64,000 nt of DNA from Chryseobacterium sp. 6424 (lineage in GTDB: Bacteria > Bacteroidota > Bacteroidia > Flavobacteriales > Weeksellaceae), in assembly GCF_003692615.1 (NCBI RefSeq), contig NZ_CP023540.1:1736001-1800000 (forward strand). Reading direction: 5' to 3'. Made by a program: the position numbers and the translations under genes. The notes under the pieces are model-generated. The model had not been told where the DNA came from, did not search any database, and saw only the letters and a list, made by a program, of their open reading frames with translations. This document shows, one piece after another, positions 46,762 through 64,000 of the stretch (positions within the stretch are counted from its first letter, which is position 1; each line of letters opens with the position of its first letter).

Positions 46762-46915
46762 ATGAACTTTCACACAGTTTTACACATTCCCACACTACAC
46801 GGAAAAATCTTTGAAGGGATTTTTCCTATGTGGAAATTTGCAAAACTGCTACCCTTAAAAACAAATAAAATCAAACTTAACTTTTAAGATTTACTGTCCA
46901 AACTTTGGGGGTAAC

Positions 46916-48182: not shown

Positions 48183-48283
48183 AATTAATTATTACATTAG
48201 ATGCTATTGCAACAAAAAACCATGTTGCCTCTTATATAATACTTAGTATTGAATCTGTTCAACTAGAAATTAATACAACCCAC

Positions 48284-48313
48284 AAAAAAACCGCTCCGCA
48301 GCATGCGGAACGG
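48284..48313 (-). terminator. Terminator downstream of a tRNA remnant
   Basis: CCG-C-TCCGCA / TGCGGA-A-CGG forms a 10-bp stem with one mismatch and a 3-base loop; the minus strand continues with seven Ts. It follows the tRNA 3' end by a few bases, as expected for the native tRNA transcript end. Confidence 0.75.
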
Positions 48314-48316
48314 TTG

Positions 48317-48361
48317 TGGCCCAGCTTGGGCTCGAACCAAGGACTTGCTGATTATGAGTCA
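48317..48361 (-). other. tRNA (CAT anticodon) 3'-half fragment, island attachment site
   Basis: Read on the minus strand, this holds the 7-base anticodon loop CTCATAA, the variable loop, a perfect T arm (CTTGG TTCGAGC CCAAG) and the acceptor 3' strand CTGGGCC plus discriminator A. The anticodon stem pairs for only three positions (TGA/TCA) and no D arm follows, so this is not a working tRNA. It is the duplicated 3' end left when an element integrates into a tRNA gene (Met or Ile2 type). The intact tRNA should lie beyond the right edge. Confidence 0.8.
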
Positions 48362-48482
48362 CTTTTTTTATGTTTTATTATATTTTTAGTTTAATTTATA
48401 ATACTTTATTTCTCTCTGATTATCAATATTTTACACCGTTTTAATTTTCAGATTATTTTATTTTATCTTACTTTTACAACAT

Positions 48483-48515
48483 AAATGTTCGTCAAATGTT
48501 CGTCAAATGTTCGTC
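48483..48515 (+). repeat. Three tandem copies of AAATGTTCGTC
   Basis: Three exact head-to-tail copies of an 11-bp unit end 19 bases before the integrase start codon. One unit is one helical turn, so bound proteins would lie on one face. Direct repeats by an integrase gene and attachment site commonly act as arm-type sites for the integrase or its accessory factor. Confidence 0.85.
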
Positions 48516-48534
48516 AAAAATTTAAGATAAAATC

Positions 48535-49746
48535 ATGACTACTTTTCAATTTACTCTCAAAAATGGTTCAAAAGCCAATGGTGAAAAAAGTATCGTTGCG
48601 CTGTTTATTAAAGACCGCAAAAATACCAGCTTATCAATTCAGAAATCGTGTAAAGAAGAACAATGGAGTTTTGAGACAGAACGGGTAAAAAAGAGCCATC
48701 CGGAATACCAAAAAATCAACACTTTTATTGAAAAATATAAAATGATTATCCAAAAAATCATCGATGATTTGGAGGATGAGAATATCCAGTACACCCTACC
48801 TGATTTAATTGACCGCATAAAAAACTTTAAGGGAAAAGGAAAGACAAAAACTTTTACCGAATTTATTTCTGAAAACACCGAAAATCTTAAATCTCTGGAC
48901 AAATTAGGTTCTGCTAAAATTGAAAAGCAGACGCTGCAATCGCTACAAACTTTTCTTGGCAAAAAAGATATTGGGTTTAATGAGCTATCTTTCCAATGTC
49001 TAAAGAAATATGAGAATTATTGCGTTTTGAAGGGAAACAAACCAGCTACGATTGGAATGAGACTTCGCACGATCCGCTATATTTTCAACATGGCGATAAA
49101 GTCTAAAATTATTAAGGAATCTCAATACCCGTTTAAAGAATATAAAATATCAAGTGTAAAAAGCACGAGCAAAAAGGAATTTTTGACACAAGATGAAATC
49201 AGCAAACTTATCAATTACGAACCTGCAAATGAGTACGAACAATTTGCCAAGGACATGTTTCTCTTCAGCTATTACGGGCGCGGAATCAATTTTATAGATG
49301 TGTTAAAATTAGAAAAGAATGGCATATACAATGATACGGTTAGTTATCTGCGCACTAAAACCGGCGTTGCTGTACGATTTAAACTTACCGAGATTTCCAA
49401 GGAAATTATTGAACGGTACCAATCGGATCCTGAATCTAAATTGATATTTAGAATTCTGAAGGACAACAACACGGAAGTAACCTATGTAAAAAACAAGTCC
49501 GCCAAATATTTACAGGTGTATGTAAATCCTTATCTGAAGACGATGATGTCGAAACTAAAAATCAGCAAAAACATTACATACTATTGCGCAAGGCATTCCT
49601 TTGCAACTGCTCTCAAGTTTAATAATGTTTCAATTGAAATCATCCGTGAAGCATTGGGACATAAGGACATTAATTCTACCATGTCTTATCTCAATTCTTT
49701 ACCTGATGCAAAACTGGATAAGATTATTGAGGATGTTATTAAATAG
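48535..49746 (+). CDS. Tyrosine-type site-specific recombinase (integrase)
   Basis: The 403-residue protein has the arm-binding region and a phage-integrase SAM-like domain (about 105-200) and a C-terminal catalytic domain. Catalytic residues are Arg249 in YGRGINFID, Lys275 in RTKTG, Arg353 in CARHSFAT, His376 in LGHKDI and Tyr385 in MSYLNSL. The first His of the HxxR box is Tyr350, a change often seen in Bacteroidota recombinases. It probably integrates and excises the island at the tRNA site 170 bases upstream. Confidence 0.93.
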   Translation: MTTFQFTLKNGSKANGEKSIVALFIKDRKNTSLSIQKSCKEEQWSFETERVKKSHPEYQKINTFIEKYKMIIQKIIDDLEDENIQYTLPDLIDRIKNFKGKGKTKTFTEFISENTENLKSLDKLGSAKIEKQTLQSLQTFLGKKDIGFNELSFQCLKKYENYCVLKGNKPATIGMRLRTIRYIFNMAIKSKIIKESQYPFKEYKISSVKSTSKKEFLTQDEISKLINYEPANEYEQFAKDMFLFSYYGRGINFIDVLKLEKNGIYNDTVSYLRTKTGVAVRFKLTEISKEIIERYQSDPESKLIFRILKDNNTEVTYVKNKSAKYLQVYVNPYLKTMMSKLKISKNITYYCARHSFATALKFNNVSIEIIREALGHKDINSTMSYLNSLPDAKLDKIIEDVIK

Positions 49747-49827: not shown

Positions 49828-50826
49828 CTAATCATTATTTAATATCTTCATAATTTCTTCCATTGTTTGAATTAAAATTTCAAAGCTTGGACTTTCCCCT
49901 ACAATCATATTGCTTTGCATAATTTTATAATCGTTTCCCCATTCTTTAATCACTTCTTTGGGAGGAATAATATTGATAAATCCCTTTTTGTGATTTTCAT
50001 AATTAATCCATTTGGAACGATTCATTTTCTCTCTAAATACCACAATCTTCTCAAAAAGCTCATCATCTACTAAAGCATTTTTACCATAATCGCTATAATA
50101 AAGTTGATACAAATCGAACAAATGACGACTCATCCTCTCACCTCTAATTCGATCTTTCGGTTTTGAAAACTCTTCATGAAGCAAAAGAATTTTTTCCAAA
50201 AAAGTTTTTGTCGGCACGGTAACCAATACTTCAAATGGCGGTAGTGAAAATGGAGCTTCTTCGTAATAATCTTCAATAAATGATTGAACCATTTTTCTCT
50301 CGGAAGGTTCGGTCATTGCTCTTGCGCCCATTTCAATTAATACCTTTTGTTGAACATAACTTTCTTGAGGCATTACACTTTTATAAACCAACTCTAAGTG
50401 ATTAGGATCACTTAAATCGTCCACAATTTCTGAATATTTGATTTCGTAATCGTTTGGAGAAATACCCAAGTTCTTCAACTGGCATTCTAATTCTTCTCTA
50501 AAATCCGATATCACAAACTTCCCCGCAGTTTTACGCAGTTTCTTCATTTGTGTTATTGTGTCGGGCTCTGCAGAAAACCCCAATAAATTTCTATCAATAA
50601 TCAAATCAACATCTTCGGAAAAGCGTTCGATAATTTGATACGCTTTGCTTAAAGAAGTTCCACCCTTAAAAATAATCTGATCCTTATATTTTGACTGAAA
50701 AACGGCGCGTAACACCATACAAACCCACCAATCCTTTTCTATTGCAAATGGCGCATAACCTGTAGATAAACCTAACTGATTTAAAGTTTCAACCCGCTGT
50801 TCCTTAGTAAGTTGTTGATGCCACAT
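49828..50826 (-). CDS. AbiEii/AbiGii family nucleotidyltransferase toxin
   Basis: The 332-residue protein has the nucleotidyltransferase motifs FKGGTSLSKAY (about 53-63) and SEDVDLIID with Asp72 and Asp74. AbiEii toxins add nucleotides to tRNA acceptor stems and block growth, giving phage abortive infection. The gene is 1 base after the AbiEi-like antitoxin gene, as in classic type IV pairs. Confidence 0.92.
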   Translation of the reverse strand: MWHQQLTKEQRVETLNQLGLSTGYAPFAIEKDWWVCMVLRAVFQSKYKDQIIFKGGTSLSKAYQIIERFSEDVDLIIDRNLLGFSAEPDTITQMKKLRKTAGKFVISDFREELECQLKNLGISPNDYEIKYSEIVDDLSDPNHLELVYKSVMPQESYVQQKVLIEMGARAMTEPSERKMVQSFIEDYYEEAPFSLPPFEVLVTVPTKTFLEKILLLHEEFSKPKDRIRGERMSRHLFDLYQLYYSDYGKNALVDDELFEKIVVFREKMNRSKWINYENHKKGFINIIPPKEVIKEWGNDYKIMQSNMIVGESPSFEILIQTMEEIMKILNND

Positions 50827-50827
50827 T

Positions 50828-51427
50828 TTATGATAGGTTTATATTTTTAATTCTTTTCTGAATCCAAACTGGTGCAAATTTCAGCTGAGAATTCAAGATA
50901 TTTTCGTCTAATTTCTTAATATATGGGATAAGTTTTTCTTCAAAAGCTTGTGAAATATTTTTCTCGCCAGTAATTTTATACGCCTGAATGATAAGTTGCA
51001 GCAGGCCATCTTTTACAGCCAAATTTCTCGGAGAAGTTTTCTTGAACTTAATTTTGCTTTTCCCTATGTTGATTTCCCGTTGCGCACCATCGGTTAAATA
51101 TACAGCGTGCAAAGGAATTTGAGTGGAAAGTCCGAGAAGATACATTGCCATAACCCCCGTAGGTGCAATCCTGGCTTTATCTCGTTTGGCAATCTCTTTA
51201 GCAATCTGTTCTATACTTGGATAAACAATTCCTAAAAGCTCATCCTTTTTTGGGTTTAAATAAATTCCATGAGCCAAGCGAACGACAACCCCTTGCTCTT
51301 CCAATCGACGAAGGACTTGGCGGATATTTTCTGGAGTGCCAAATTTTTGAAAATCTTCTGCGAAAAATATTTTTCCCTTTGAAGACTTCCTTATCTTGTT
51401 TTCTATTTGACTATGAGTATTTTGCAT
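50828..51427 (-). CDS. AbiEi-like antitoxin, DUF6088 family
   Basis: The ATG at 51427 (199 residues, MQNTHSQIENKIRKSSKG) is chosen; the frame open to 51475 would start inside the operator palindrome. An N-terminal winged-helix region (IFFAEDFQKFGTPENIRQVLRRLEEQGVVVRL) is followed by the antitoxin domain with ARIAPTGVMAMYLLGLSTQ. AbiEi antitoxins repress their own operon and counter the toxin. The palindrome at 51444-51476 is the likely binding site. Confidence 0.88.
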   Translation of the reverse strand: MQNTHSQIENKIRKSSKGKIFFAEDFQKFGTPENIRQVLRRLEEQGVVVRLAHGIYLNPKKDELLGIVYPSIEQIAKEIAKRDKARIAPTGVMAMYLLGLSTQIPLHAVYLTDGAQREINIGKSKIKFKKTSPRNLAVKDGLLQLIIQAYKITGEKNISQAFEEKLIPYIKKLDENILNSQLKFAPVWIQKRIKNINLS

Positions 51428-51443
51428 CACTTTTTGAAAATTA

Positions 51444-51476
51444 TTTGTCACAAATTTAGTAAATATTTGTGACAAA
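51444..51476 (-). promoter_or_regulatory. AbiE operator: 12-bp inverted repeat over promoter
   Basis: TTTGTCACAAAT and ATTTGTGACAAA are perfect inverted repeats separated by 9 bases, 17 bases ahead of the antitoxin start. On the minus strand a -7-like TAAATTTG (51451-51458) lies in the start-proximal arm, so binding would block transcription. This fits known AbiEi negative autoregulation. Confidence 0.8.
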
Positions 51477-51531: not shown

Positions 51532-54500
51532 CTATTCCCTAAACCTCCTGAAATTTTCTGCCTGCTCAAAAATTTCTTTGTACACTTCGTCGCGGGTTAC
51601 GGGTGGATAGCCGTGTTCGGCAAGCTTCAAAATTAAATCTACTTTCAGTTCGGCTTTGATGTCTTCTCTTTCGCTCCAGTCGGTATATTTGGCTTTGTCA
51701 TCCACGATGATTTTGATGTCTTTGGCGAGGGCAATGAGTTTTTCTTCAGGATACTCAAATTTGTATTTGTCCCGGATTTCTTTCAGGATATCATAGAAAG
51801 ATTTCTCCTCGAAGTCGATTCCTAATTGCTCGAAAGAATATTTCTCCGTTTTTAGATCGCGTAGCAAGTCCGCCATTTGTCCGGCAAGATCATCCAAAAC
51901 ATCGTTGGCCAAAACCATATCTTCACTTCTTTCATTGTATTTGTCTACAATCGTTTGAAGCCTTTTAGTGAAATCAACCCCTTTTACTTTATTCACTTTC
52001 TTGAAATCATCAATTGCCATTTTCAAAAGCCGTTGCAGAATCTTAATTTTCGTATTCGGAAGTTTAATGCGGTCGATTCTTTCCAGATACTCTTCACCGA
52101 AAATATCTATTTTTTCTCCTGCGTTTTCATCCATTTTGAAAACTTCTTCCACACCGTCACTTTGTACGGCTTCTTCCACCATTTTAGCAACGCGGGCGTT
52201 CATCTGCGCAATATCCGGTGCTTCTTTTTTCGTAAGTTTATAAATGATGGAACGAATTGCCACAAAATAATGGATCTCCTCTTTCTCAGAATAAGTAAAC
52301 GCTTCCGATGAACAGCAGATGTTATACGCCTCCTTCATCTTCCGCACGATTCGCATAAAGCGCTTTTCCAAATCTTCAGTCGTTTGGACAAATTCTGCTG
52401 CTAAATTGAGGTTTTCCAATTGCTGAACCGGGCTGCCTTCAAAGTAGGGTTTAGTATTGAAGTTGTGGAATATTTTCCGCAGCAAATCCAACTGGTCTTT
52501 TACAATGGTAATGGCTTTATCAATGTCTTCAAACTCGTTTTGGTCTTCTTTATTGAATTTCGCCAAAGCATAATTCATATTGTTTTTGATGCCGATATAA
52601 TCTACAACCAAACCTTTATCCTTCCCTTTAAATTTTCGGTTGACCCGTGAAATCGTTTGAATCAGAGAATGCTCCTGAATGGGTTTATCAATATAAATAC
52701 TGTCCAGAAACGGTACATCAAAACCTGTAAGCCACATATCTACCACAATGGCGATTTTGAAATTGGATTTTTCCTGCTTAAACTGCCGGTCCAGTTCCTT
52801 GCGGTCGTCTTTCGTTCCGAGCAGTTCATACAAATCCTTTTCATCATCTTTATCCCTCGTCATCACCATATTGACTTTGGCAATCGGTTTTAACTCCTTC
52901 ATTTCCTTTTCAGAAAGTTCTATGCCGTCCTCATGCGTTTTGATGATGCCCCATTCCGGGCGGAGTTCTAACAGTTCTTTATAAAAATTGTACGCAATCT
53001 CCCTGCTCGAAGAAACAAACATCGCCTTTCCGCATACCGTTGCACCTTCGTTTACCCGATTTTCATAGTGTTTTACAAAATCTTCTGCAACGGCTTTCAG
53101 CCGGTCTTTGTCGCCAAGAATGGCATTCATTCCGGTAGTCGCTTTTTTGCTTTCTTCCACCTGATATTCGCTGGAACCTTCTGCCACGCACTGGGCATAG
53201 TATTCTTCTATCTCTTTTAGTTTTTCCGTTTTCAGGATTACTTTTGAGGCACGGCCTTCATACACAATCCGTACGGTGATTTCATCCTGAACAGATTCGT
53301 TCATCGTATAGGCATCTACCACATCGCCGAAAACTTCAAAAGTTTTGTCGATCGGTGTTCCGGTGAACCCTACATAAGTGGCGTTGGGCAAGGACTGATG
53401 CAGATAATAGGCGAAACCGAAACTGGTCTTCACCTCCTTATCGGTGATTTTAAGATTTTTATCGAGGTTAATTTGCGAACGGTGCGCCTCATCCGAAATA
53501 CAGATGATGTTGTTCCGCTCGGAAAGCAGTTCGGTATCTTCCGCAAATTTGTGGATGGTGGTGAGAAAAACTCCGCCACTTTCTCTGTTTCGCAACTGGT
53601 TTCTCAGGTCTTCGCGAGATTCTACGCTTACGATATGATTATCACCAATGAAGTTTTTGGCGTTGGTAAAAGTTCCGGACAGTTGCTCGTCCAAATCGGT
53701 ACGGTCGGTGATGAGGATGATGGTAGGACTTGCCATTTCTGTACTCCGCATCAGCAAGCGAGAAAGATATAGCATGGTGTAGCTTTTCCCGCATCCGGTG
53801 GCTCCGAAATAGGTTCCGCCCTTGCCGTCGCCCAAAGGTTTCCGGTGGGCTAAAATATTTTCGTACAGTTTTCTGCTGGCGTAATATTGCGGATACCGGC
53901 AGACAATTTTCTCCTGCTTCTTGCCGGTGTCCGGGAAAAAGATAAAATTGTGAATCACATCACGAAGTCGGTCTTTATTGAATAGCCCTTTGATCATCGT
54001 GTAAAGCGAGGCAATTCCGTCTTTGGAAATCTTTTCGTGGCTTTCGGCTTTTCGCCAACCGTAGAAAAATTCGTACGGCGCAAAAAGCGAACCCGCCTTA
54101 TTATTCACTCCATCGCTGAGCACCAGAAACGCATTGTATTTCAGCAGTTCGGGGATGTCCCTTTTGTAGCGGATGGTGAGTTGCTTGTAGGCATCGTGGA
54201 TGGTGGTATTTTCCTGAATGGCAGTTTTAAATTCAAACACCACCAAAGGAATTCCGTTGATGTACAGAATACCGTCCGGAATTCTTTTTTCCGAACCCTT
54301 TATCTCCAACTGATTCACAAAGTGGTAGATGTTTTGGTCTTTGTCGGAATAATCGATGAGCTGGATGAACAAATCTTTTTTAGAGGCGTCTTCGCGTTTC
54401 AGCGTGAAACCATCGGCAATGAGTCGCAGAATATCACGGTTGCTCTCGTAGAGCGCCGAAGAGGAAAAATATTCCAGTTTCAGGATGATTTGCTGCACCT

Positions 54501-54669
54501 CGCCCGGCGAAATATCCGCATAAATCTGATAGAGGAAATTTTTTAAATCCTCTTTCAGCAGTACCTCTTCCAGCGTTTTGTGGATGTGCAACCCAGAAGT
54601 ATGCGGTATGCCCTGCTCTGCCAACAAGGATATAACGCTTTGCTCTAATTGGGATTCGGTGAATTTCAT
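51532..54669 (-). CDS. hsdR: Type I restriction endonuclease subunit R (HsdR)
   Basis: The 1045-residue protein has an N-terminal PD-(D/E)XK nuclease (Asp132 in PDGILY, Glu146 and Lys148 in FEFK), Walker A GATGCGKSYTM at 289-299, DEAH at 393-396 and later SF2 helicase motifs such as FTGTPI and QTISRVNRKF. The C-terminal helical part would dock to HsdMS. It cuts unmethylated DNA after translocation. It now has its own promoter, because an opposing two-gene operon lies directly upstream. Confidence 0.95.
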   Translation of the reverse strand: MKFTESQLEQSVISLLAEQGIPHTSGLHIHKTLEEVLLKEDLKNFLYQIYADISPGEVQQIILKLEYFSSSALYESNRDILRLIADGFTLKREDASKKDLFIQLIDYSDKDQNIYHFVNQLEIKGSEKRIPDGILYINGIPLVVFEFKTAIQENTTIHDAYKQLTIRYKRDIPELLKYNAFLVLSDGVNNKAGSLFAPYEFFYGWRKAESHEKISKDGIASLYTMIKGLFNKDRLRDVIHNFIFFPDTGKKQEKIVCRYPQYYASRKLYENILAHRKPLGDGKGGTYFGATGCGKSYTMLYLSRLLMRSTEMASPTIILITDRTDLDEQLSGTFTNAKNFIGDNHIVSVESREDLRNQLRNRESGGVFLTTIHKFAEDTELLSERNNIICISDEAHRSQINLDKNLKITDKEVKTSFGFAYYLHQSLPNATYVGFTGTPIDKTFEVFGDVVDAYTMNESVQDEITVRIVYEGRASKVILKTEKLKEIEEYYAQCVAEGSSEYQVEESKKATTGMNAILGDKDRLKAVAEDFVKHYENRVNEGATVCGKAMFVSSSREIAYNFYKELLELRPEWGIIKTHEDGIELSEKEMKELKPIAKVNMVMTRDKDDEKDLYELLGTKDDRKELDRQFKQEKSNFKIAIVVDMWLTGFDVPFLDSIYIDKPIQEHSLIQTISRVNRKFKGKDKGLVVDYIGIKNNMNYALAKFNKEDQNEFEDIDKAITIVKDQLDLLRKIFHNFNTKPYFEGSPVQQLENLNLAAEFVQTTEDLEKRFMRIVRKMKEAYNICCSSEAFTYSEKEEIHYFVAIRSIIYKLTKKEAPDIAQMNARVAKMVEEAVQSDGVEEVFKMDENAGEKIDIFGEEYLERIDRIKLPNTKIKILQRLLKMAIDDFKKVNKVKGVDFTKRLQTIVDKYNERSEDMVLANDVLDDLAGQMADLLRDLKTEKYSFEQLGIDFEEKSFYDILKEIRDKYKFEYPEEKLIALAKDIKIIVDDKAKYTDWSEREDIKAELKVDLILKLAEHGYPPVTRDEVYKEIFEQAENFRRFRE

Positions 54670-54670
54670 T
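54599..54670 (-). repeat. hsdR 5'-end repeat, copy 1 (functional gene)
   Basis: These are the first 24 codons of the real hsdR. Copy 2 at 56306-56377 matches it at 69 of 72 positions, and copy 3 at 58229-58260 matches the start-codon-proximal 32 bases at 31 positions. Confidence 0.9.
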
Positions 54671-54700
54671 AAAAAATGTTAAAATATTAATTTCTAATAA

Positions 54701-54708
54701 CAAAAATA
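54701..54708 (-). promoter_or_regulatory. -7 promoter element of hsdR
   Basis: The minus strand reads TATTTTTG, matching TAnnTTTG, 32 bases ahead of the hsdR ATG. Confidence 0.5.
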
Positions 54709-54728
54709 AGTATTTTAGCAGAGAATTT

Positions 54729-55865
54729 ATGGAAAATAATCAAAACACTTTTATTGCGCCAAAGTTAACAGGTTCTCGTTTTGATGACCATTCTATACCC
54801 GTAGATCTATTAGAAAATTTTGCAGTTCTTCAAGATTTGATTTTCGACATTGCAAAAGACATTTATTTAGAACAAAATCCCGAAAGACAGCGCGTTCCTA
54901 AAGGTTTTACAGATGATGTTTATTTAAAACTAGTGGATGTAGATCCGGGAAGTGCAATTGCTAAATTTATTTTGGCAAGCACTATCGGCTTATCGTCCGG
55001 TCTTTTCCCAAAAAACATTGAATATTTCGAACAGGCAAAAGATAAATTAATACAATTTGTTGAGCAATCAGAAAAAAAAGAAATTACACCCGAATTCAAA
55101 GACAAGTATAAATTTTATTTCAATAGATTAGGTAAAAACTTATTAGAAAACGAAGAATTGATATTAAATCCTAATTCTACTTCCCAGTATAAATCAGCAA
55201 TCAATATCACTACCAGGAAACAAATTATACTTTCATCGAATAATAACCGCGAATACAGCAGTTCTATTACAATTAATGCTCTGGTTCACGAACTGGATCA
55301 GGACAAAAAAACTTTTGGTATTACTTTCGGCGAAACGAAATTGCAAAACATACCCTGCGGAGATTTTTTCCATGAAATTCTTTCTGCATTTGTAGAGTTT
55401 AAAAACAATGCACTTATATCTATAAAAGCCACCGGTATTTACAATAGCAATGATAAACTGGTTAAGATTGATGAGATAGAGTCTGCCAATATTCTCGATC
55501 CGCTGGATGTCTCCGTAAGACTTAAAAATCTTTCCGAATTGAAAGACGGTTGGTATCATGGTGAAGGTAAGGGATTGAATTCTGAAAATCTGAAAAAATT
55601 TGAGAATGCTTTTTCATCTTTTTATGATTCACACCTTCCACTTCCTGCAATTTTTCCTACCATTGATGGCCATATACAATTAGAATGGTCTATTAACCAG
55701 TCTGAAATATCCCTCGAAGTAAATACAGATGACTTTACAGCAGAATATTTTGCTTCTGATATTAACAGTGATGATTTTGAAGAAGTTCACTTATCATCAT
55801 TATTACAGGAACACGCCTGGGAAACCATTAATAAAGACATTTCATTAAAAATGATAAAAGTTTAA
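54729..55865 (+). CDS. Uncharacterised protein of a two-gene operon, 378 aa
   Basis: No named domain is recognised. The N-terminal part (about 1-110) has SRFDDHSIPVDLLENFAVLQDLI, RQRVPKGFTDDVYLKLVDVDPGSAIAKF; a predicted beta region follows (ITINALVHELDQDKKTFGI, IKATGIYNSNDKLVKI), and the C-terminal part has LKDGWYHGEGKGLN and LPAIFPTIDGHIQLEWSIN. The same order of motifs is familiar from uncharacterised proteins of other phyla, found with a small partner. It is divergent from hsdR and its stop overlaps the next start (TAATG). Cytoplasmic. Confidence 0.7.
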   Translation: MENNQNTFIAPKLTGSRFDDHSIPVDLLENFAVLQDLIFDIAKDIYLEQNPERQRVPKGFTDDVYLKLVDVDPGSAIAKFILASTIGLSSGLFPKNIEYFEQAKDKLIQFVEQSEKKEITPEFKDKYKFYFNRLGKNLLENEELILNPNSTSQYKSAINITTRKQIILSSNNNREYSSSITINALVHELDQDKKTFGITFGETKLQNIPCGDFFHEILSAFVEFKNNALISIKATGIYNSNDKLVKIDEIESANILDPLDVSVRLKNLSELKDGWYHGEGKGLNSENLKKFENAFSSFYDSHLPLPAIFPTIDGHIQLEWSINQSEISLEVNTDDFTAEYFASDINSDDFEEVHLSSLLQEHAWETINKDISLKMIKV

Positions 55866-56257
55866 TGAAAGAGGAAACACTATTACACAGACAAATACAC
55901 CCCACATTTATTTTGGGAAAAATTATATCTGCACAAGTATTTGAGATTTCATCCCAAGTCTTTACTCCTACGCCGAAAGATGATTTTAAATTATCGGTTT
56001 ATAATGGTGAAAAATTTACTCCAAAAGAATCTTATGAACATTATACCAAAGAATTAGTTTCTGCCGGAACTGCTTCTGTAACGATACGCGAATGTAAATC
56101 TCAGGTACTAAATGTTACAGAAGATAATGATCCTTTTGATGGACATAGTTACATTGATTATACAGGATTATCAAACGGTGAAATAAAAGCAAAAGCAAAA
56201 AAACTTAAGGCTATAGCCATAACCCGTGGTTTAACCTATATTCCTGAAGAATATTAA
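55865..56257 (+). CDS. Uncharacterised partner protein, 130 aa
   Basis: The product starts MKEETLLHRQIHPTFILGKI, then SSQVFTPTPKDDFKLSVYNGEKFT and ends GHSYIDYTGLSNGEIKAKAKKL...RGLTYIPEEY. The HRQIHP, FTPTPKDD and IDYTGLSNGEIKxKAKKL segments look strongly conserved, by recollection, in a family that always follows a homologue of the upstream gene. The start codon overlaps the upstream stop by one base, so the two proteins are made in step and may form a complex. A terminator follows at once. No function known. Confidence 0.7.
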   Translation: MKEETLLHRQIHPTFILGKIISAQVFEISSQVFTPTPKDDFKLSVYNGEKFTPKESYEHYTKELVSAGTASVTIRECKSQVLNVTEDNDPFDGHSYIDYTGLSNGEIKAKAKKLKAIAITRGLTYIPEEY

Positions 56258-56291
56258 AACCGCGAGATTCTCGTTAAATCTCGCGGTTTTT
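56256..56291 (+). terminator. Terminator after the two-gene operon
   Basis: A perfect 14-bp stem AAAACCGCGAGATT / AATCTCGCGGTTTT with a 7-base loop and terminal T-run begins at the stop codon. It would also hinder minus-strand transcripts coming from hsdMS. Confidence 0.9.
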
Positions 56292-56305
56292 AAATAGTTT
56301 ATTGG

Positions 56306-56377
56306 GTAGGCGGTAGGCCCTGCTCTGCCAACAGGGATATAACGCTTTGCTCTAATTGGGATTCGGTGAATTTCATT
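56306..56377 (-). repeat. hsdR 5'-end repeat, copy 2 (remnant)
   Basis: This matches 54599-54670 at 69 of 72 positions. Read on the minus strand it starts ATG at 56376 and encodes MKFTESQLEQSVISLLAEQG before a stop five codons later. Its ATG overlaps the TGA stop of the DUF3644 gene (ATGA), so an hsdR gene once followed that gene directly. Confidence 0.9.
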
Positions 56378-57479
56378 GGTTATTTATTTGAAAATCTTCT
56401 AAATTTAATTTCTGTTTTTTATCATATGAACCTTTCCAAACAGTTTTGGTTAGTTTTTCCAAGGAAATGTTTTCGACCAAAAATTTCACCCATGCTTCTT
56501 GAAATACATAATCGTCGTGAACTTCATCATAATGGCAAAAATTTGTATTACAGTCAAAAGGATCGTTTTGCCCTTCATCTTGTGCAGTCGGCCTAATTGA
56601 AAATGCATAGTACAAACATTTCAAATCAAAATGATTAATTTTTTTTGAAAGCTCAATTTCGTCGTTAACAAGCCTTATTACTTCGCCAGGTTTTAATTTT
56701 CCAGGATTTAATACTTCTTTATGAACTACCTTATCTTTAATAATCGTAGTAATTTTTTCATAATTAAATCTATCTTCTTCAGAAAGATTATTCCAATTAA
56801 CAAATTCTATTGCTAAATCACTCCTATTTGTGTTAGAAATCTTGGGAACTTGAATTAATTTAATACTGTACTCCTGTGAATCAAAAACATCATTAGGTAG
56901 TGCATTTTTATATCTATCAATAAATTCCCTCAAATCTTTAACCTCTTTGGAAAGTAACGTTTTACTGGCAATACTTTGCCCGCTAGTTCTAATTCGGGAA
57001 AACTGCAATGCAAACGATAGTGATTCATTCAAAGCATATTCTTCACCAAAAAAATCTATTAGCTTGCTTTCGAAATTATAAAGTAAAGATTGGCATTCTC
57101 CAAAAATCGTGATACCAATTTCATCTTTTTCAATATGTCTATGCTCAATTTTATTTCTCAGTTTTATAAAGAAATCTAGATTAGCTTTTTGTGAAAGGCT
57201 TAGTTGTCCATATTTAGTAATGCATGTTTTCAGTTCCCATGCTTTTTTTTCTCCTTCAATTAATTCATATCGTCCACTTTTATTTTTATAATAGAATTTA
57301 TCACCAATGGTGTAGTGGAAATGCGCTTGAAACAATTTAGTCCATGCCATAATCATATTTGTAATATAGCCTTCGACTCTATAATTAGTCCGGGGCTTAT
57401 TATAAATCTCTACTGCTAAAAGCGCACATTCAATCGCATTTTCGAGAATAACCTTTGTCTTTCCTTTTCGTAGTTGCAT
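56373..57479 (-). CDS. DUF3644 domain-containing protein, HEPN-like
   Basis: The 368-residue protein opens with a helical domain: LENAIECALLAVEIYNKPRTNYRVEGYI, AWELKTCITKYGQLSLSQKANLDFFIKLRNKIEHRHI (seen in parts). RNKIEH (Arg108, His113) is the RX4H motif of HEPN RNases. The C-terminal part (about 200-368) has a predicted winged-helix-like region and CNTNFCHYDEVHDDY. DUF3644 proteins occur in defence loci. It is 9 bases after the DUF4145 gene and directly precedes an hsdR 5' remnant. RNase activity is inferred. Confidence 0.8.
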   Translation of the reverse strand: MQLRKGKTKVILENAIECALLAVEIYNKPRTNYRVEGYITNMIMAWTKLFQAHFHYTIGDKFYYKNKSGRYELIEGEKKAWELKTCITKYGQLSLSQKANLDFFIKLRNKIEHRHIEKDEIGITIFGECQSLLYNFESKLIDFFGEEYALNESLSFALQFSRIRTSGQSIASKTLLSKEVKDLREFIDRYKNALPNDVFDSQEYSIKLIQVPKISNTNRSDLAIEFVNWNNLSEEDRFNYEKITTIIKDKVVHKEVLNPGKLKPGEVIRLVNDEIELSKKINHFDLKCLYYAFSIRPTAQDEGQNDPFDCNTNFCHYDEVHDDYVFQEAWVKFLVENISLEKLTKTVWKGSYDKKQKLNLEDFQINNQ

Positions 57480-57488
57480 TTTTATATT

Positions 57489-58127
57489 TTAATCAGGCAT
57501 CTCTTCCAAAATTTGACGTGTTGTCTCTTCTGTTTCGATCCAAGAAATTGTAAGGTCGATAAGTTTTTTTAAACTTTGAACATCCTTCCCTTCCCATTTT
57601 CTTTCATAGTGAGTTTCGTCATTTCCCAACCAAACTGCTCTTTTTGCAACATTTTTTATATTATCACTTTTAATGTAATCATTTATAACTGGCATTAACA
57701 TTTTGGCTTTAATTTCACTTTCTTTTTCGGGATATAATTTGCAGGAATAATCCTTTATTAAAAATTCTAAAGCTTTTCGGAAGCCTACACCCGAAATCTG
57801 GTCAAGATTGTAGTGTTCTGCAGTTTCAGCTTGATTGTATATGGTTATAAAATTTGGTGAAATACTAGAAATTATTTCACTAAATTTTTTAACTTCAAGA
57901 AACCCTCCAATAGCATTTTTATAAAAATAAGTGTTCGATTGTAACTTTTCGTAAACAGTTACAAAAGCCTTTCCACAAGCCAAATTTGTGCATATTATAA
58001 AAAAACTTAATTCAGAATTTTTTAATGAATGTGAATTAGTTTTTGGAATTATGTGTTTATGGCAGTAAGGACAAAAATCTATAATTCTGCCAATATCGAA
58101 TACCCGACTATCCAAATGTATTTGCAT
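57489..58127 (-). CDS. DUF4145 domain-containing protein
   Basis: The 212-residue protein has a zinc-ribbon-like pair CPYCHKHI (about 19-26) and CTNLACG (about 47-53), then the DUF4145 helical domain with YNLDQISGVGFRKALEFLIKD and AVWLGNDETHYERKW, the latter at the position of the family's N-E-x-x-H motif. DUF4145 is known as a domain of, or neighbour to, type I R subunits. It probably acts with the DUF3644 protein. It lies between an hsdS 3' remnant and the DUF3644 gene. Confidence 0.83.
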   Translation of the reverse strand: MQIHLDSRVFDIGRIIDFCPYCHKHIIPKTNSHSLKNSELSFFIICTNLACGKAFVTVYEKLQSNTYFYKNAIGGFLEVKKFSEIISSISPNFITIYNQAETAEHYNLDQISGVGFRKALEFLIKDYSCKLYPEKESEIKAKMLMPVINDYIKSDNIKNVAKRAVWLGNDETHYERKWEGKDVQSLKKLIDLTISWIETEETTRQILEEMPD

Positions 58128-58140
58128 AATTTTATTGTTT

Positions 58141-58179
58141 TTATTTCGCCATCGCGATTTTCCTCAGCAGCCGTTTTTT
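58141..58179 (-). pseudogene. hsdS 3'-end remnant
   Basis: The minus strand encodes KKRLLRKIAMAK and a TAA stop, very like the end of the intact HsdS (LKSLLLGKMAVEN, stop). No ORF extends further upstream. With the hsdR 5' remnant at 58229-58260 it marks an old hsdS-to-hsdR boundary region. Short length makes this suggestive rather than certain. Confidence 0.55.
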
Positions 58180-58228
58180 TATTACTTTACATTTTAAATC
58201 ATAAAATGTCCTTTACTTTTAACTAAGT

Positions 58229-58260
58229 CTTTGCTCTAATTGGGATTCAGTGAATTTCAT
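58229..58260 (-). repeat. hsdR 5'-end repeat, copy 3 (remnant)
   Basis: This matches the first 32 bases of hsdR at 31 positions. On the minus strand it reads MKFTESQLEQ from an ATG at 58260, then diverges and stops three codons later. It lies 12 bases downstream of the coiled-coil gene's stop codon. Confidence 0.85.
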
Positions 58261-58272
58261 GGTTTTTATTTT

Positions 58273-59699
58273 TTAGACAATTTCGTCGTCATCAGTTTCG
58301 GTAGATAAATCATCAATTGCTTTATCTATAATATCTTCCTTTTCAGCTATTTTTTTCTTTGCTCTATTTTCTAAAATTGCTACAATTTTACTCATACCTG
58401 GGATTCCATCCAATTTATCAATGGCGATTTGGAATTTATAGCTTTGCTCTAGAGCCTCCATTAATGGGTGATCAGAAGCCTCATAATTTGAAATTAACTT
58501 TCCTGGATTTTCTGACGAAACTTGTAGAAAAGCAGAAAGTAACCGATATCTTAATTCTTCACTCTCTTCATGATCATTAAGATTATTTATTTGCTTGGAT
58601 AGTCCTTCGTATGTTTTACTTAAAACCTCTTTATGAGAATACTCTTCGATTAATCTTTTTGAAAGATTAAGTTTTTTATTTGCCGAATACGTAAACCAAA
58701 GTACTGGTATATAGATAGGAATTATTGCCAAAACTAGCCGTGGCAATTTGAGAATGGTTTCCTCAAGTTGATGACCACTAAATATATAATAAATACTCAC
58801 GCACACAGGTAATAAACTGACAGCGATCATCATATATATACCTCTATTAAAACTTTTTCGTAAATCACTTGATTGTTGCATTTCTTCCGTTCTTTTTGCT
58901 GAAAATGCCGAGGACAAACCAGCTGTCATTGCATTGGGCAATAAACTTTGTATTTCATCTATATTAGCTTTATATCGATCTTTATGATCTGACTCAAAAA
59001 GCGAGAATTTTTCTTTATATTCTATATTAATACTATTAACTCTATTAGTAGCCACATTAATTGCAGTATCTAACTCAGAATATATTTCTTCAAGTTGTTC
59101 TTTCTTTCCTGGAATATGCATTGCAGACCCATCTTCCTCTTCATCATCATATCCAAAAATATCTTGATATAACTCATCAATGTCTTTTACTCTATTATTA
59201 ATTAGAGAGAGTGAAGTTTTAGATTTGTTAGCATTATTTTCTACAGAATTAATAAAACCTTCAATTCAGCTAGTTTTTCATCTAAATTTGGATAATTTTC
59301 AGTAAATGAATCGATTTTATCAATTCTTTCGCTTAATTCCGAAAAATTATTTTTTGCTTTCTCGTCAATTTGTTCAATTTGTGTTTTAAGAACTGTAATT
59401 TCATCCTTCTTACTTACTATCTCGTTGAAAAAACTCTCCGCATCCTTCAATTTTTGCTCAATATTAGAAACAAAAGTAGTTGCTTCATTAAATCTCTGCT
59501 CACTTCTATTCTTATATTCTGCTGCTTTTCGCGAACTTTGAAATGCTTCAGATTGAGATTCAGATGTTTTGGAAACGATTTCTTTTCTAATTTCATTATC
59601 CTGCGCTTCAAGTTTAGTTATTCTTTCCCATAACTTCTTTCTCTCGTCTTCCAGATACTGAACTTTCTTTTTCAAATCTTTATCTTCAAAAAATGCCAT
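58273..59699 (-). pseudogene. Coiled-coil and transmembrane protein gene, one frameshift
   Basis: The first part (59699 to about 59262) encodes a long coiled coil (KKKVQYLEDERKKLWERITKLE...). The frame then breaks near 59256-59264; one added base gives GFINSVENNANKSKTSLSL and INNRVKDIDELYQDIFGYDDE and continues without a stop into the second part (apparent ATG at 59121), which has two membrane segments (IYMMIAVSLLPVCVSIYYIF and LVLAIIPIYIPVLWFTY) and more coiled coil. Restored length is about 475 residues. No named family is recognised. Its place between hsdS and hsdR is like that of rlo genes. Mutation or sequencing error are both possible. Confidence 0.75.
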
Positions 59700-59710
59700 A
59701 GTTAATGTTT

Positions 59711-60934
59711 TTAATTTTCCACCGCCATTTTACCCAGCAGCAGGCTTTTTAGTTCTTCGAATTTTTGGGTTTGTCTGGTAATTAGTTTTATTTTTTTTAT
59801 TAAATTACCTATTATTCCATCATATTTTTTAACTATTTCATTTTGGGGTATTAAAATCTTGAATGCTGTTAATTGCGGAACAGTTAATTGATTTTGAACA
59901 GAACCTGAATCGTCGAATTCAAATTTATTAATGTAATCAAAAAGATATTTTGCAAAAAAATCTTCATTCGGTATTACTACAATTAATCTTACAATAGGAA
60001 CAAAAGGCTCATCTCTTAAAACACAAAATCCAATTGTACCTCTTGCGGAAATAGAAATGCTTTTTTTGAAAATTTTTGCCTCGTTTGTAAATCCATAAAG
60101 ACCTTCATCGGTAACACCATTTGAATAAATGGGAATTCTACACTCAGTAGACTTAATGTTTGAAAATACATTGGGTCTGTCACCTCCCGCTGATAGCGTT
60201 GCAATTTCTTTAATCGGTTGCAAATTCCACCCCTCCGGAATTTCCTTGCCCAGTTCTTCGTTGTATACCATTTTTCCTCCGGAAGATTTGTAAGTTGGGT
60301 GGGTGGTTGATGGTTGATGGTTGTGGGATTCTTTGCTCTTTGTTCTTTCTTCTTTGTTCTCAACCGGAAATTCAAAATCCTCAAACCAATGCTTATAAAT
60401 GGTTTGTGCGGTTTCCTCTAATTTCCAGCAAAGTTTTTTGTTCAACAGGATGCGCTGCTCCACGGCTTGGTATTCCGCAACGATCTCTTTTTGCTTTTCG
60501 AGGGAGGGCAAAGGAAATTTCATATTCAAAAAATCTTCCCACTCCAAACTTCCTCTTACACCACCAACGGCCAAAAAACATGCTTCGCGGTCAAACTCGC
60601 TTCGCGTAAACCACATCATAAGATAATCTGGAGAAAGACTGCCTTCATCTACAATTTCAAATATTGGATAAGCTTGCGATATAATACCGGGCTCGTTCTT
60701 TTTCCATAACGCAACGGGCATCTTTTTATCTCTGCGCACTTGCATAACGCTACACGCAAACTGATTTTTGCGAATAATCTTGTAAGTGGACATATCTGTT
60801 CCCACCACATTTGCAACAGAAGTAATGAAGTTTTTATTAATGGTCAAACCTGCCAAATTGCTTATTTCCAAATTCCGGTTACGCTCGTCCACCAATCGGA
60901 TATAGTCGCCCAGTCTTTTATAATTCGAATGCAT
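59711..60934 (-). CDS. hsdS: Type I restriction-modification specificity subunit (HsdS)
   Basis: The ATG at 60934 (407 residues) is preferred to a TTG at 60949; either overlaps the end of hsdM. Two target-recognition domains are each followed by a helical conserved region: FPLPSLEKQKEIVAEYQAVEQRI after the first and ILIPQNEIVKKYDGIIGNLIKKI after the second (in parts). Between them is a linker with repeated Lys/Glu/Ser/His residues and GKEIPEGWNL. HsdS sets the DNA site for both methylation and cutting. The C-terminus is LLLGKMAVEN. Confidence 0.93.
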   Translation of the reverse strand: MHSNYKRLGDYIRLVDERNRNLEISNLAGLTINKNFITSVANVVGTDMSTYKIIRKNQFACSVMQVRRDKKMPVALWKKNEPGIISQAYPIFEIVDEGSLSPDYLMMWFTRSEFDREACFLAVGGVRGSLEWEDFLNMKFPLPSLEKQKEIVAEYQAVEQRILLNKKLCWKLEETAQTIYKHWFEDFEFPVENKEERTKSKESHNHQPSTTHPTYKSSGGKMVYNEELGKEIPEGWNLQPIKEIATLSAGGDRPNVFSNIKSTECRIPIYSNGVTDEGLYGFTNEAKIFKKSISISARGTIGFCVLRDEPFVPIVRLIVVIPNEDFFAKYLFDYINKFEFDDSGSVQNQLTVPQLTAFKILIPQNEIVKKYDGIIGNLIKKIKLITRQTQKFEELKSLLLGKMAVEN

Positions 60935-62534
60935 ACCCCAATTTTTCAAAAACTTTCTTTAAATCCTCATTGCTCTGCTGCTCTTCTTTCAGCAAGCCTA
61001 CGATGTCCTGTTGAAGCTCCGTCATTTTCTCATGATAATCCACATTCTCATCGCGGTTTACAAACTCGATGTATTTGCTGGGCACCAATGAATAATCTTT
61101 GTTTTTAATTTCTTCTTTCGTGGCAGAATAGCAATATTCTGGGATGTTCTGGTAGGAAATACCCTCAACAATATCTTCATTGGGCGTCCACTGTTTTGTG
61201 GTTTCATCGTAGTTGTTCGCAGTCTGCCAGCGATGGTAGGTATGGGCGATATTGTAAATGTCGAGTTCCGAAAACTGCGTGAATTTTTTCTCAAAAGGAA
61301 TCCCCTTTTCCCGCAAATCCATAAACAGGACTTCATCCACACGGTGGCGATAGCGGCGTATTTGGTCGCCTTTTTCCACGGTGTGTTGCTTTTTATTTTT
61401 GTTCAATATCCAGAGCGTTACGCTGATATTGGTAGTATAAAACATATTCTGCGGTAGAATGATGATGGCTTCCACGAGGCCGTTTTCTACGAGTGTTTTT
61501 CGGATGGCTTTTTCCGTGCCGTCGCCACTCAGCGCACCGTTGGCAAGGATGAAGCCCGCCACGCCGTTCTCGGAAAGTTTGGAAACCATGTGCAAAATCC
61601 AGCCGTAATTGGCATTGCTGGTAGGCGGAACTTCGTAGCCGTTCCATCGTGGATCGTCCACCAGTTCATTCGCAGCACGCCAGTCCTTTTGATTAAAAGG
61701 CGGATTGGCCATAATGAAATCGGCTTTCAAATCCTTATGCTGGTCGTTGGAAAAAGTGTCTGCCGCCACCTCGCCAAGATTTGCGGAAATCCCGCGGATA
61801 GCGAGGTTCATTTTTGCCAGTTTGTAGGTGGCATTAGTGTACTCCTGCCCATAGACGGAGATTTGCTTCTTGTTGCCGCTGTGCTCGTTTACAAACTTTA
61901 CCGACTGCACGAACATTCCACCGGAACCGCAGCAAGGATCATAGATTTTGCCCTCGAAAGGTTCTATCATCTCAGCAATCAAGTTTACAATGGATTTTGG
62001 GGTGTAGAATTCGCCTTTGCCCTTTCCTTCCGCCAAAGCAAAATTGGAGAGGAAATATTCGTACACGCGACCTACCAAATCGTGCTCCTTATCCGCAATG
62101 GTATTTATTTGATTAATGGTATCCAGCAATGCCGAAAGTTTACTCACATCCAGCCCCAGTCGGGAAAAATAATTATCAGGAAGTGCACCTTTCAGCGCAG
62201 GATTGTTTTGCTCTATCGTAAAAAGCGCGGTATCTATTTTCAGGGCGATGTCGGATTGCTTCGCCTGCTGCATCATGTAGCTCCAACGCGCTTGCTCGGG
62301 TAGATAGAAAACATTTTTCATGGTGTAGAATTCCACCATGTCGGTAAACTGTTCTTTGCCTTCGGCAATGAGTTCCTGTTTTCTTTCTTCGAAGGTATCT
62401 CCTGCAAATTTCAGGAAGATGAGACTGAGGACAATGTGTTTATATTCAGCAGATTCCACAGAACCCCGCAATTTGTTTGCGGAATCCCAAAGTGTTTCTT
62501 CAATGGATTTGGACTTGGTAATTTTTTTGGCCAT
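60918..62534 (-). CDS. hsdM: Type I restriction-modification methyltransferase subunit (HsdM)
   Basis: The 538-residue protein has the SAM-binding motif YDPCCGSGGM (about 198-207) and the N6-adenine catalytic motif NPPF at 277-280, with the N-terminal helical HsdM_N domain (LWDSANKLRGSVESAEYKH). It methylates adenine in the site chosen by HsdS. It is first in the operon, 15-20 bases downstream of the inferred start of transcription, and overlaps hsdS by 17 bases. Confidence 0.96.
   Translation of the reverse strand: MAKKITKSKSIEETLWDSANKLRGSVESAEYKHIVLSLIFLKFAGDTFEERKQELIAEGKEQFTDMVEFYTMKNVFYLPEQARWSYMMQQAKQSDIALKIDTALFTIEQNNPALKGALPDNYFSRLGLDVSKLSALLDTINQINTIADKEHDLVGRVYEYFLSNFALAEGKGKGEFYTPKSIVNLIAEMIEPFEGKIYDPCCGSGGMFVQSVKFVNEHSGNKKQISVYGQEYTNATYKLAKMNLAIRGISANLGEVAADTFSNDQHKDLKADFIMANPPFNQKDWRAANELVDDPRWNGYEVPPTSNANYGWILHMVSKLSENGVAGFILANGALSGDGTEKAIRKTLVENGLVEAIIILPQNMFYTTNISVTLWILNKNKKQHTVEKGDQIRRYRHRVDEVLFMDLREKGIPFEKKFTQFSELDIYNIAHTYHRWQTANNYDETTKQWTPNEDIVEGISYQNIPEYCYSATKEEIKNKDYSLVPSKYIEFVNRDENVDYHEKMTELQQDIVGLLKEEQQSNEDLKKVFEKLGYAFEL

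Positions 62535-62656: not shown

Positions 62657-64000
<1,344 letters not shown>

Follow-up and report, generated by a model that had tools for sequence, protein, structure and literature searches.

The gap between hsdS and hsdR in type I restriction-modification (R-M) operons is an established site of embedded defence genes, with DarTG2 placed there in EPEC at a position termed a potential recombination hotspot (PMC12255303) and both TgvAB of V. cholerae VPI-2 and RloF of C. jejuni located in the equivalent gap (PMC11411939). The locus described here is alike in the slot used and in the kind of payload. The sections of those two reports drawn upon here are concerned with single modules, and in them gene fragments, cassette edges, stacking and a mechanism of entry are not described. 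Another parallel is provided by the arrays of orphan cdiA-CT/cdiI modules in CDI systems, in which every payload module begins with a piece of the resident gene, strains are homologous from one shared piece to the next, and recombination between the conserved stretches has been proposed (PMC3150448, which also treats Rhs).

As in the CDI/Rhs arrays, fragments of the resident gene stand at the head of modules in the hsdR family examined here (37 fragments in 29 of 85 loci), and similarity between loci starts at the shared fragment, here between species. In CDI systems the fragment belongs to the toxin gene itself, the gene that has its 3' end exchanged. The hsdR fragment is instead a dead 5' end, and hsdR stays unchanged while entire unrelated operons are added upstream of it. 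The slot payloads include AbiE, RhuM, Schlafen-like, Fic, SIR2, TIR and CBASS-like families and not the exchangeable C-terminal toxin domain with immunity gene of CDI/Rhs, indicating that the hsdR arrays work like CDI/Rhs arrays but are not such arrays. In the open-access literature no description of hsdR 5' fragments as cassette edges was found, and the "truncated hsdR" of PMC6918075 denotes, in the part of that paper used here, a nonfunctional hsdR gene; the slot is already known, and published accounts of scars that delimit cassettes were not encountered there. Each fragment, termed a scar, is probably the left-hand boundary of a defence-gene cassette, with such cassettes stacked in the hsdS-hsdR gap.

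Results

The window is a 64,000-nucleotide stretch of the Chryseobacterium sp. 6424 genome (contig NZ_CP023540.1, positions 1,736,001 to 1,800,000) carrying hsdM, hsdS and hsdR of one type I system, with three foreign modules in the hsdS-hsdR gap from 59699 to 54729 (Table 1). The two ORFs of module 1 look like a single gene probably split by a frameshift, and neither has a Pfam family at E 1e-3. The embedded genes assigned by PADLOC (PDC-S19 and PDC-M32A/B) are defence candidates. A 46% relative of the first gene of module 2 immediately precedes hsdR in locus L090. Module 3 is oriented opposite to the operon, and a 62% M32 pair, likewise inverted, lies between a scar and hsdR in L089; the two pairs were rejected as a shared junction, the similarity beginning ~150 nt past both scars, and were left out of the pairwise comparisons described below. 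A tyrosine integrase gene (48535-49746) is located near the locus, outside the slot and beyond AbiE.

Table 1. Features of the type I R-M operon and its embedded modules, in window coordinates
Feature	Position	Strand	Basis
hsdM, type I methyltransferase subunit	60918..62534	-	Pfam N6_Mtase 5e-100, HsdM_N
hsdS, specificity subunit	59711..60949	-	Pfam Methylase_S 6e-23; PADLOC Specificity_I
Module 1, two ORFs (59241-59699 and 58273-59121)	58273..59699	-	
Scar A (copy 3), first 32 nt of hsdR, 31/32	58229..58260	-	
hsdS 3'-end remnant, 33 nt past scar A	58132..58195	-	DNA alignment vs shuffles
Module 2 gene 1, 212-aa protein	57489..58127	-	weak DUF4145, below cut-off
Module 2 gene 2, DUF3644, candidate PDC-S19	56373..57479	-	PADLOC
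Scar B (copy 2), first 71 nt of hsdR, 68/71	56306..56376	-	
Module 3, candidate defence pair PDC-M32B (55865-56257) and PDC-M32A (54729-55865)	54729..56257	+	PADLOC
hsdR, intact restriction subunit	51532..54669	-	Pfam HSDR_N, SWI2_SNF2, T1RH-like_C

The beginning of hsdR recurs twice upstream on the same strand, as a 72-nt pair (54599-54670 and 56306-56377) with 96% identity (69/72) and as a third partial copy, the three-copy repeat family taking in 58224-58273. The ATG codons lie at 54669-54667 in hsdR, 56376-56374 in copy 2 and 58260-58258 in copy 3, and copy 2 shares an ATGA with the DUF3644 gene, its ATG overlapping that gene's TGA stop. An earlier note on this DNA had claimed both upstream copies and the overlapped stop, and all three observations are confirmed. 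Throughout the 2.59-Mb single-contig genome the hsdR start region has no match at E < 1e-3 other than these three, the next-best being a 24-nt match at E 0.007, so that the dispersal of the repeats beyond hsdR, which the note had counted against its own reading, is absent.

The hsdS remnant past copy 3, overlooked in the earlier note, aligns over 64 nt with the last 55 nt of hsdS and 9 nt past its stop. Its alignment score of 48 is reached by none of 2000 shuffles (maximum 30) and by none of 322 windows elsewhere in 20 kb, with a blastn E of 3e-4 that equals the best reversed-control match and a negative protein-level test in which 49 of 200 shuffles are as good. Altogether an hsdS 3' tail comes after three scars: scar A of the window, one in L090 and one in L177. 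The tail in L090 is 55 nt long (93%, E 2e-19), and the 54-nt tail in L177, a locus of another HsdR family, was spotted by eye. The search for such tails was positive for two of the 37 scars of the window's family; a blastn screen at E 0.05 gave matches in 14/37 stretches compared with 20/37 in the reversed control, meaning that by this screen alone just L090 stands.

Across the 85 loci all 37 scars lie upstream of hsdR on the same strand, with none downstream and a single weak opposite-strand match. They start at nucleotides 1-7 of hsdR and none extends past nucleotide 123 of the ~3.1-kb gene; their lengths run from ~23 to 123 nt, about a fivefold range. When the full-length hsdR is used as query at E < 1e-4, 35 of 36 same-strand upstream fragments start at nucleotides 1-4 and end by nucleotide 123; the 36th (L038), together with two opposite-strand matches (L046 and L056), is an internal hsdR piece upstream of hsdM, outside the slot. 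Reversed sequences gave one chance match in the 85 loci, and upstream 5' fragments were found for 24 of 78 hsdR genes compared with 1 of 847 other genes, the latter also showing one same-strand downstream and three opposite-strand matches. Chance repeats are ruled out by these reversed-sequence, opposite-strand and other-gene controls. An assembly artefact was also rejected as a general cause, scars being present in single-contig genomes (the window genome, G316, G064, G213 and G204) and in the finished plasmid NZ_CP041688.1.

The remaining 56 of the 85 loci have no detectable scar. The median hsdM-hsdR gap is 4.4 kb in the 48 scarless loci measured compared with 5.9 kb in 24 scarred loci, the long gaps of the scarless loci suggesting that cassettes also come in scar-free or that scars decay. 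In L012, L015, L020, L048 and L049 the scar falls at the hsdS stop, as would be expected of a junction formed in an empty slot. Scar length correlates negatively with identity to the locus's own hsdR (Spearman -0.46, p 0.004, n 37, shared ancestry being ignored), and the longest exact run between a scar and hsdR is 55 nt. Toward hsdR, identity to the own hsdR rises in four of the seven multi-scar loci, falls in two and ties in one. Among 1035 windows, codon identity is highest at hsdR codons 1-10 (0.654 compared with 0.418 +/- 0.059). The hsdM start is also elevated (rank 21 of 528), indicating that the conservation is partly an ordinary gene-start effect, and an additional DNA-level constraint on the hsdR start is not taken as main evidence.

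Outside the window's family, scars occur in 4 of the 54 loci with an HsdR of another family, where, as for L141-L154, the query was the own hsdR only and some loci have little upstream sequence. Three further kinds of repeat were seen and left uncounted: an internal hsdR stretch of 40 nt that recurs upstream in L134 and L135 (other families), short repeats of the bases preceding the start codon in L152 (the window's family), and an opposite-strand match in L169. Scars are absent from all six further plasmid loci inspected. A close hsdR start is present in 854 of 5426 E. coli genomes at 879 places, and three of three loci inspected, by annotation only, have no scar and an hsdS-hsdR gap of 94 nt each. 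The E. coli count includes 25 places beyond one per genome, one of them in GPEC996.

For 13 of the 37 scars, in 24 locus pairs, a relative retains what appears to be the earlier state, with an intact hsdR following similar upstream sequence; no such relative is present in the set for the other 24. The paired loci (for example L115/L126, L093 and L096/L126, L113/L104 and L012/L043) are 67-95% similar to within 15 nt of the ATG, at which hsdR is intact in one and a scar is present in the other. Sequence following the scar is common to 21 locus pairs, which form six clusters and are not independent, the comparisons being between species rather than strains. No similarity preceding the scar is detectable in 18 of the 21 (8 of 9 under a strict cut in which the shared sequence starts at most 15 nt from both scars), and in the other three the preceding sequence is also common. 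The breakpoints of exchange thus fall at the scar, as illustrated by L035 and L045, which are 100% identical over 300 nt past the scar and 50-58% identical ahead of it (random median 48). The clusters account for 18 of the 37 scars, and 25 distinct junctions are present among the 37, or 18 if any downstream similarity merges them. The cassette chains of L126 and L043 resemble sums of other loci; no strain-level series of cassette addition was found among the loci compared.

Discussion

The proposed mechanism, which we infer as a whole from these patterns, would have three steps. In the first and rare step, DNA from a related locus in the order hsdS 3' tail, module, hsdR would join the resident hsdR within its first ~120 nt, by homology on the hsdR side and by an illegitimate joint of hsdR start to hsdS tail on the other, leaving the old hsdR start as a scar and bringing in a complete new start. 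In the second, a scar-headed cassette ending at hsdR could be added to any locus with a module X between hsdS and hsdR, with X kept, by plain homologous recombination between the cassette scar and the resident hsdR start; the pattern of this step is seen in the loci compared, and recombination of this kind may be the process behind it. In the third, the scar and the hsdR start would form a pair of direct repeats, so that long or near-identical scars would be deleted and short or diverged ones would persist. The earlier note had proposed that modules entered the hsdS-hsdR gap serially with their own hsdR starts, and this is supported by the earlier states retained in relatives and by the scar-plus-cassette stretches common to loci with different contexts. 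A single fixed order with identical remnants, which the note had regarded as contrary evidence, is not what the relatives show. Any order of module entry assigned to the window itself would be inferential. Between the two routes that the note offered, recombination between related hsd loci fits, and insertion with target duplication does not, because scar length varies between ~23 and 123 nt, the 5' edge lying in the start-codon region, and because no recombinase is found among the 25 most frequent of 52 Pfam families of cassette ORFs. The variation also departs from the constant length of a transposon target-site duplication.

Homology-facilitated illegitimate recombination is described in three naturally competent species and in E. 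coli conjugation (PMC3240628), and each scar could be an independent one-step integration of foreign DNA by this route with no later role for the scar. Such events would account for a homologous right side with a random left joint and are in keeping with the number of distinct junctions. This explanation is nevertheless unlikely, as about half of the scars (18 of 37) fall in shared clusters and the sequence common after the scar with unlike sequence before it indicates that scar and cassette travel as one with the boundary reused; one-step integration alone also leaves the 123-nt maximum unexplained. A collapse of tandem complete R-M loci, in which one locus inserts next to another and DNA is then deleted from the hsdR start of the neighbour to the next hsdS tail, would yield precisely the scar followed by an hsdS tail observed in the window, L090 and L177, and it would substitute for the first step only, leaving the second unaffected. 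It is considered quite improbable, since both ends of the joint must hit short stretches every time and no piece of the hsdR body lies between modules (E < 1e-4 in a search covering hsdR sequence).

Tandem genomic islands at tRNA genes and integron cassettes have a fixed att core and an integrase, and at tRNA genes insertion rebuilds the target gene, with a fragment left behind and further inserts piling up in tandem. A site-specific integrase using the hsdR start as attachment site and leaving a piece of the gene at the distal end of each insert would give a like geometry, and the tyrosine integrase gene near the window locus could be viewed in this light. That gene lies outside the slot, however, the scar end point is variable where a fixed recombination core would be expected, and no integrase or recombinase family occurs among the 25 most frequent of the 52 Pfam families in 96 cassette ORFs, making this explanation very unlikely. 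RAYT/IS200-like genes were rejected as a general agent, being present in several slots while many scars adjoin other modules; Y1_Tnp was below cut-off in two of the five RAYT-like ORFs examined (E 2e-4 and 4e-4), and no such gene was seen in the window slot. Retention of the fragments as short leader ORFs coupling translation between modules would suit the several scars that begin at an ATG overlapping the preceding stop and the 29 of 37 whose aligned part has no in-frame stop. The in-frame stops in 8/37, the indels in 8/37, the opposite strand of the genes past scar B and the many scarless loci make it extremely improbable.

With scars read as cassette edges, they suggest that R-M operons can gain stacked antiviral genes without a dedicated recombinase. 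The way in which defence islands grow is not settled, and many proposals invoke integrases or transposons. The scars are a readable record, suggesting that modules are added singly and exchanged between genera with the joint retained, and they provide a sequence mark for locating cassette edges and attempting to order the additions. The DNA between scars is a place to seek unknown defence genes, and the trade-off among short homology, stability and defence-gene gain becomes testable. A bolder and more tentative reading, to which we give somewhat less than even credence, is that the hsdR start serves as the portable homology arm of a recombinase-free cassette system. Defence modules would have a captured hsdR start at their left end and could be stacked across genera on any R-M locus of the family, and scars would be kept within a size range that permits recombination between cells yet, through shortness or divergence, avoids deletion within one. 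If this were true, type I R-M operons would be self-assembling defence islands.

The hsd operon of the window

The type I restriction-modification operon carries three modules between hsdS and hsdR, and these are separated by same-strand copies of the hsdR start, one of nucleotides 1-32 (31/32 identical) between modules 1 and 2 and the other of nucleotides 1-71 (68/71 identical) between modules 2 and 3. The repeats of the hsdR start claimed in the earlier note are real on inspection and represent a local case of a recurring structure. No further copies are found at E < 1e-3 across the 2.59-Mb single-contig genome. A short same-strand 5' fragment of hsdR lying upstream of the intact gene is termed a scar, the hsdS-hsdR gap the slot, and the scar-headed payload within it a cassette; L numbers denote individual hsd loci collected for comparison.

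Features of the hsd operon and its surroundings (window positions)
Feature	Position	Strand	Description
hsdM	60918-62534	-	type I R-M operon
hsdS	59711-60949	-	type I R-M operon
Module 1	58273-59699	-	two ORFs; looks like a single gene split by a frameshift
Scar A	58229-58260	-	copy of hsdR start
Module 2		-	212-aa protein with weak DUF4145 similarity; DUF3644/PDC-S19
Scar B	56306-56376	-	copy of hsdR start
Module 3		+ (opposite to operon)	PDC-M32A/B candidate pair
hsdR	51532-54669	-	type I R-M operon
AbiEi/AbiEii pair	49828-51475		immediately downstream of hsdR
Flank	45632-49746		transposase with rve core, DUF3427 protein fragment, tyrosine integrase
Other flank	62657-64000		DUF772 transposase

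The split in module 1 may mean that the module is dead or that the sequence contains an error; by eye its ORFs show a coiled coil and then membrane segments. By hsdR, the closest named relatives (89%) are Kaistella palustris and Chryseobacterium sp. HSC-36S06. In a whole-genome search, the four top-ranking genomes apart from its own come from the same genus as the window. AbiEi has relatives (57-61%) within the slot of nine loci of the same hsdR family, five of which also hold relatives of AbiEii (54-56%). No tRNA genes were found in the window.

Scars match the hsdR start

The locus set comprises 85 non-duplicate members of the window's hsdR family (the window plus 48 and 40 loci, minus three duplicates and minus L032, which has no hsdR start). 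In those with a detected hsdM, the gap from hsdM to hsdR, including hsdS, spans 1.1-10.9 kb. Searching these loci with all hsdR starts (E < 1e-3) locates scars in 29 of them, amounting to 37 same-strand 5' fragments, every one upstream of hsdR and none downstream, with one weak opposite-strand match (L098) and one match in the reversed-sequence control. The 5' edge is hsdR nucleotide 1 in 31/37 scars and nucleotides 2-7 in the remainder. A same-strand upstream copy of the gene's own start occurs for 24 of 78 hsdR genes compared with 1 of 847 control genes drawn from these loci, the sole positive being a RAYT-like gene repeated in L118; this control also gives one same-strand downstream and three opposite-strand matches. 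When whole hsdR (~3140 nucleotides) is searched (E < 1e-4), the same-strand matches upstream number 36, of which 35 start at nucleotides 1-4 and end by nucleotide 123, and the 36th (L038), together with opposite-strand matches in L046 and L056, consists of internal hsdR pieces upstream of hsdM and outside the slot.

By record titles the scars come from Bacteroidota and Desulfobacterota, and from single contigs whose titles read Verrucomicrobia, Limnohabitans and uncultured bacterium. An additional 14 loci from the window's family include one with a scar (L144); in other HsdR families scars are present in 1/14 (L134) and 3/40 (L173, L177 and L187), starting at, or at most 15 nucleotides from, the start codon. 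A 40-nucleotide internal hsdR stretch is repeated upstream in L134 (near 8112) and L135 (near 8528), of another HsdR family. Codons 1-10 of hsdR have the top same-codon conservation in the gene (rank 1/1035 windows, 90 sequences), and conservation of the hsdM start is raised less (rank 21/528 windows).

The scarred locus L090 (the L160 record, NZ_CP041688.1) resides on a Chryseobacterium sp. SNU WT5 plasmid of 66 kb, with modules of DUF4062, a nucleotidyltransferase (SMODS) with S_4TM, and DUF4145. Relatives occur in 156 plasmid records; of the seven inspected, the six other than L090 (Psychrobacter, Klebsiella, E. coli and Enterococcus) contain no scars. A close hsdR start is found in 854/5426 E. 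coli genomes, and the hsdS-hsdR gap is 94 nucleotides by annotation in three E. coli loci inspected. These three and the six scarless plasmid loci indicate that the system can exist without cassettes.

Payloads of the scarred slots

Twenty-six scarred slots, a set that excludes the window's, hold 96 ORFs of at least 80 amino acids, 93 of them in the hsdR orientation. Pfam assigns DUF6088 (AbiEi in PADLOC) to 10, RhuM to 8, AbiEii to 6, Schlafen AlbA_2 to 5, AAA_21 to 4, PD-(D/E)XK and SIR2 to 3 each, TIR and Fic to 2 each and S_4TM to 1, and no integrase is among the 25 commonest of the 52 families. RAYT/IS200-like genes, with weak Pfam support, follow scars as cassettes in L026, L033, L104, L108, L115, L118, L122 and L126, some with GCGAATTGCAATTCGC-type palindromes nearby. 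Palindromes (e.g. TTTGTCCAG...CTGGACAAA) also separate the scar from the gene that follows (AbiE at several of the loci) in L012, L013, L022, L025, L043, L049, L093 and L126, and appear similar to the operators of self-regulated toxin-antitoxin pairs.

Scars as probable cassette boundaries

The scars are very probably the left edges of exchangeable cassettes. When similarity must begin within 60 nucleotides, the sequences following the 37 scars form 25 distinct junctions, six of them common to 18 scars (18 clusters when any later similarity may join them). In the six shared clusters 18 of 21 similar pairs, which are non-independent, have no detectable similarity in the 300 nucleotides before the scar, the exceptions being L012/L049, L013/L043 and L118/L122; requiring similarity to begin at most 15 nucleotides from both scars leaves 8/9 such pairs, again non-independent. 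Identity between L035 and L045 is 100% for the 300 nucleotides after the scar and 50-58% before it. Stacked cassettes are seen in L126 and L043. From hsdS to hsdR, L126 holds X, a scar, an L115-type RAYT cassette, a scar, an L093-type AbiE cassette, a scar and a HipA-like cassette, and L043 holds an L016-type cassette, a scar, an L012-type cassette, a scar and a Schlafen-like cassette. The M32 pair recurs in L089 (62% to the window's), likewise inverted between scar and hsdR with different modules ahead; the junctions of the two loci have lost their resemblance. Another locus's hsdR start is a better match than their own for 26/37 scars, a comparison blurred by short scar length; such a match would be the expected outcome of horizontal exchange.

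Putative states before and after cassette entry can be paired. The scar overlaps the hsdS stop in L012, L015, L048 and L049 and lies two bases past it in L020, and hsdR of the empty locus L027 occupies the position held by the scar in these five. For 13/37 scars (24 pairs), intact hsdR stands in another locus behind upstream sequence that is 67-95% similar, the similarity reaching to 15 nucleotides or fewer from the ATG. Among these, L126 has putative before-states in L115 (94-100% over the last 150 nucleotides) and in L093 and L096 (90-96% over the last 100), L104 in L113 (74-94%), L013 and L011 in L016 and L053 (68-80%), and L043 in L012 (86-92%). Past the scar, the 14 pairs profiled drop to 48-59% similarity, near random (median 48, 95% at 58).

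Scar origin and relation to known systems

prrC is an accessory gene in the hsd gap of EcoprrI. The slot is already known to house defence genes, as with DarTG2 (PMC12255303) and TgvAB (PMC11411939). No account of hsdR-start scars was found in the open literature searched. The system closest in its way of working is the orphan cdiA-CT/cdiI array, in which, according to PMC3150448, modules are bounded by resident-gene fragments and exchange starts at the fragments. Payload and geometry differ, making this a likeness rather than membership.

The hsdS 3' end follows 2 of the 37 scars searched, in L090 (55 nucleotides, 93%, E 2e-19) and at scar A of the window, where a 64-nucleotide alignment is reached by 0/2000 shuffles but has an E of 3e-4 and a negative protein-level test. 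A 54-nucleotide hsdS tail, spotted by eye and then aligned, follows the scar in L177, of another HsdR family. At L177 8781-8954 the scar continues in frame into this tail (LRDTLLPKLMSGEVRV); a short peptide fusing hsdR to hsdS would be encoded across the joint. A scar with an hsdS tail would be the trace expected from a resident hsdR start joined to an incoming hsdS tail-module-hsdR segment, with the hsdR side of the joint presumably anchored by homology and the other side probably made illegitimately.

Each scar repeats the hsdR start in direct orientation. Across the 37 scars, greater length goes with lower identity to the hsdR of the same locus (Spearman -0.46, p 0.004, a statistic that ignores shared ancestry), and the longest uninterrupted match is 55 nucleotides; the trend fits a loss of long, near-identical repeats by deletion, which may act as a stability filter. 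Taken with this filter, the complete two-step mechanism is somewhat favored, in which a rare illegitimate join would make a scar-headed cassette and the scar would then serve as the homology arm for stacking further cassettes in the slot.
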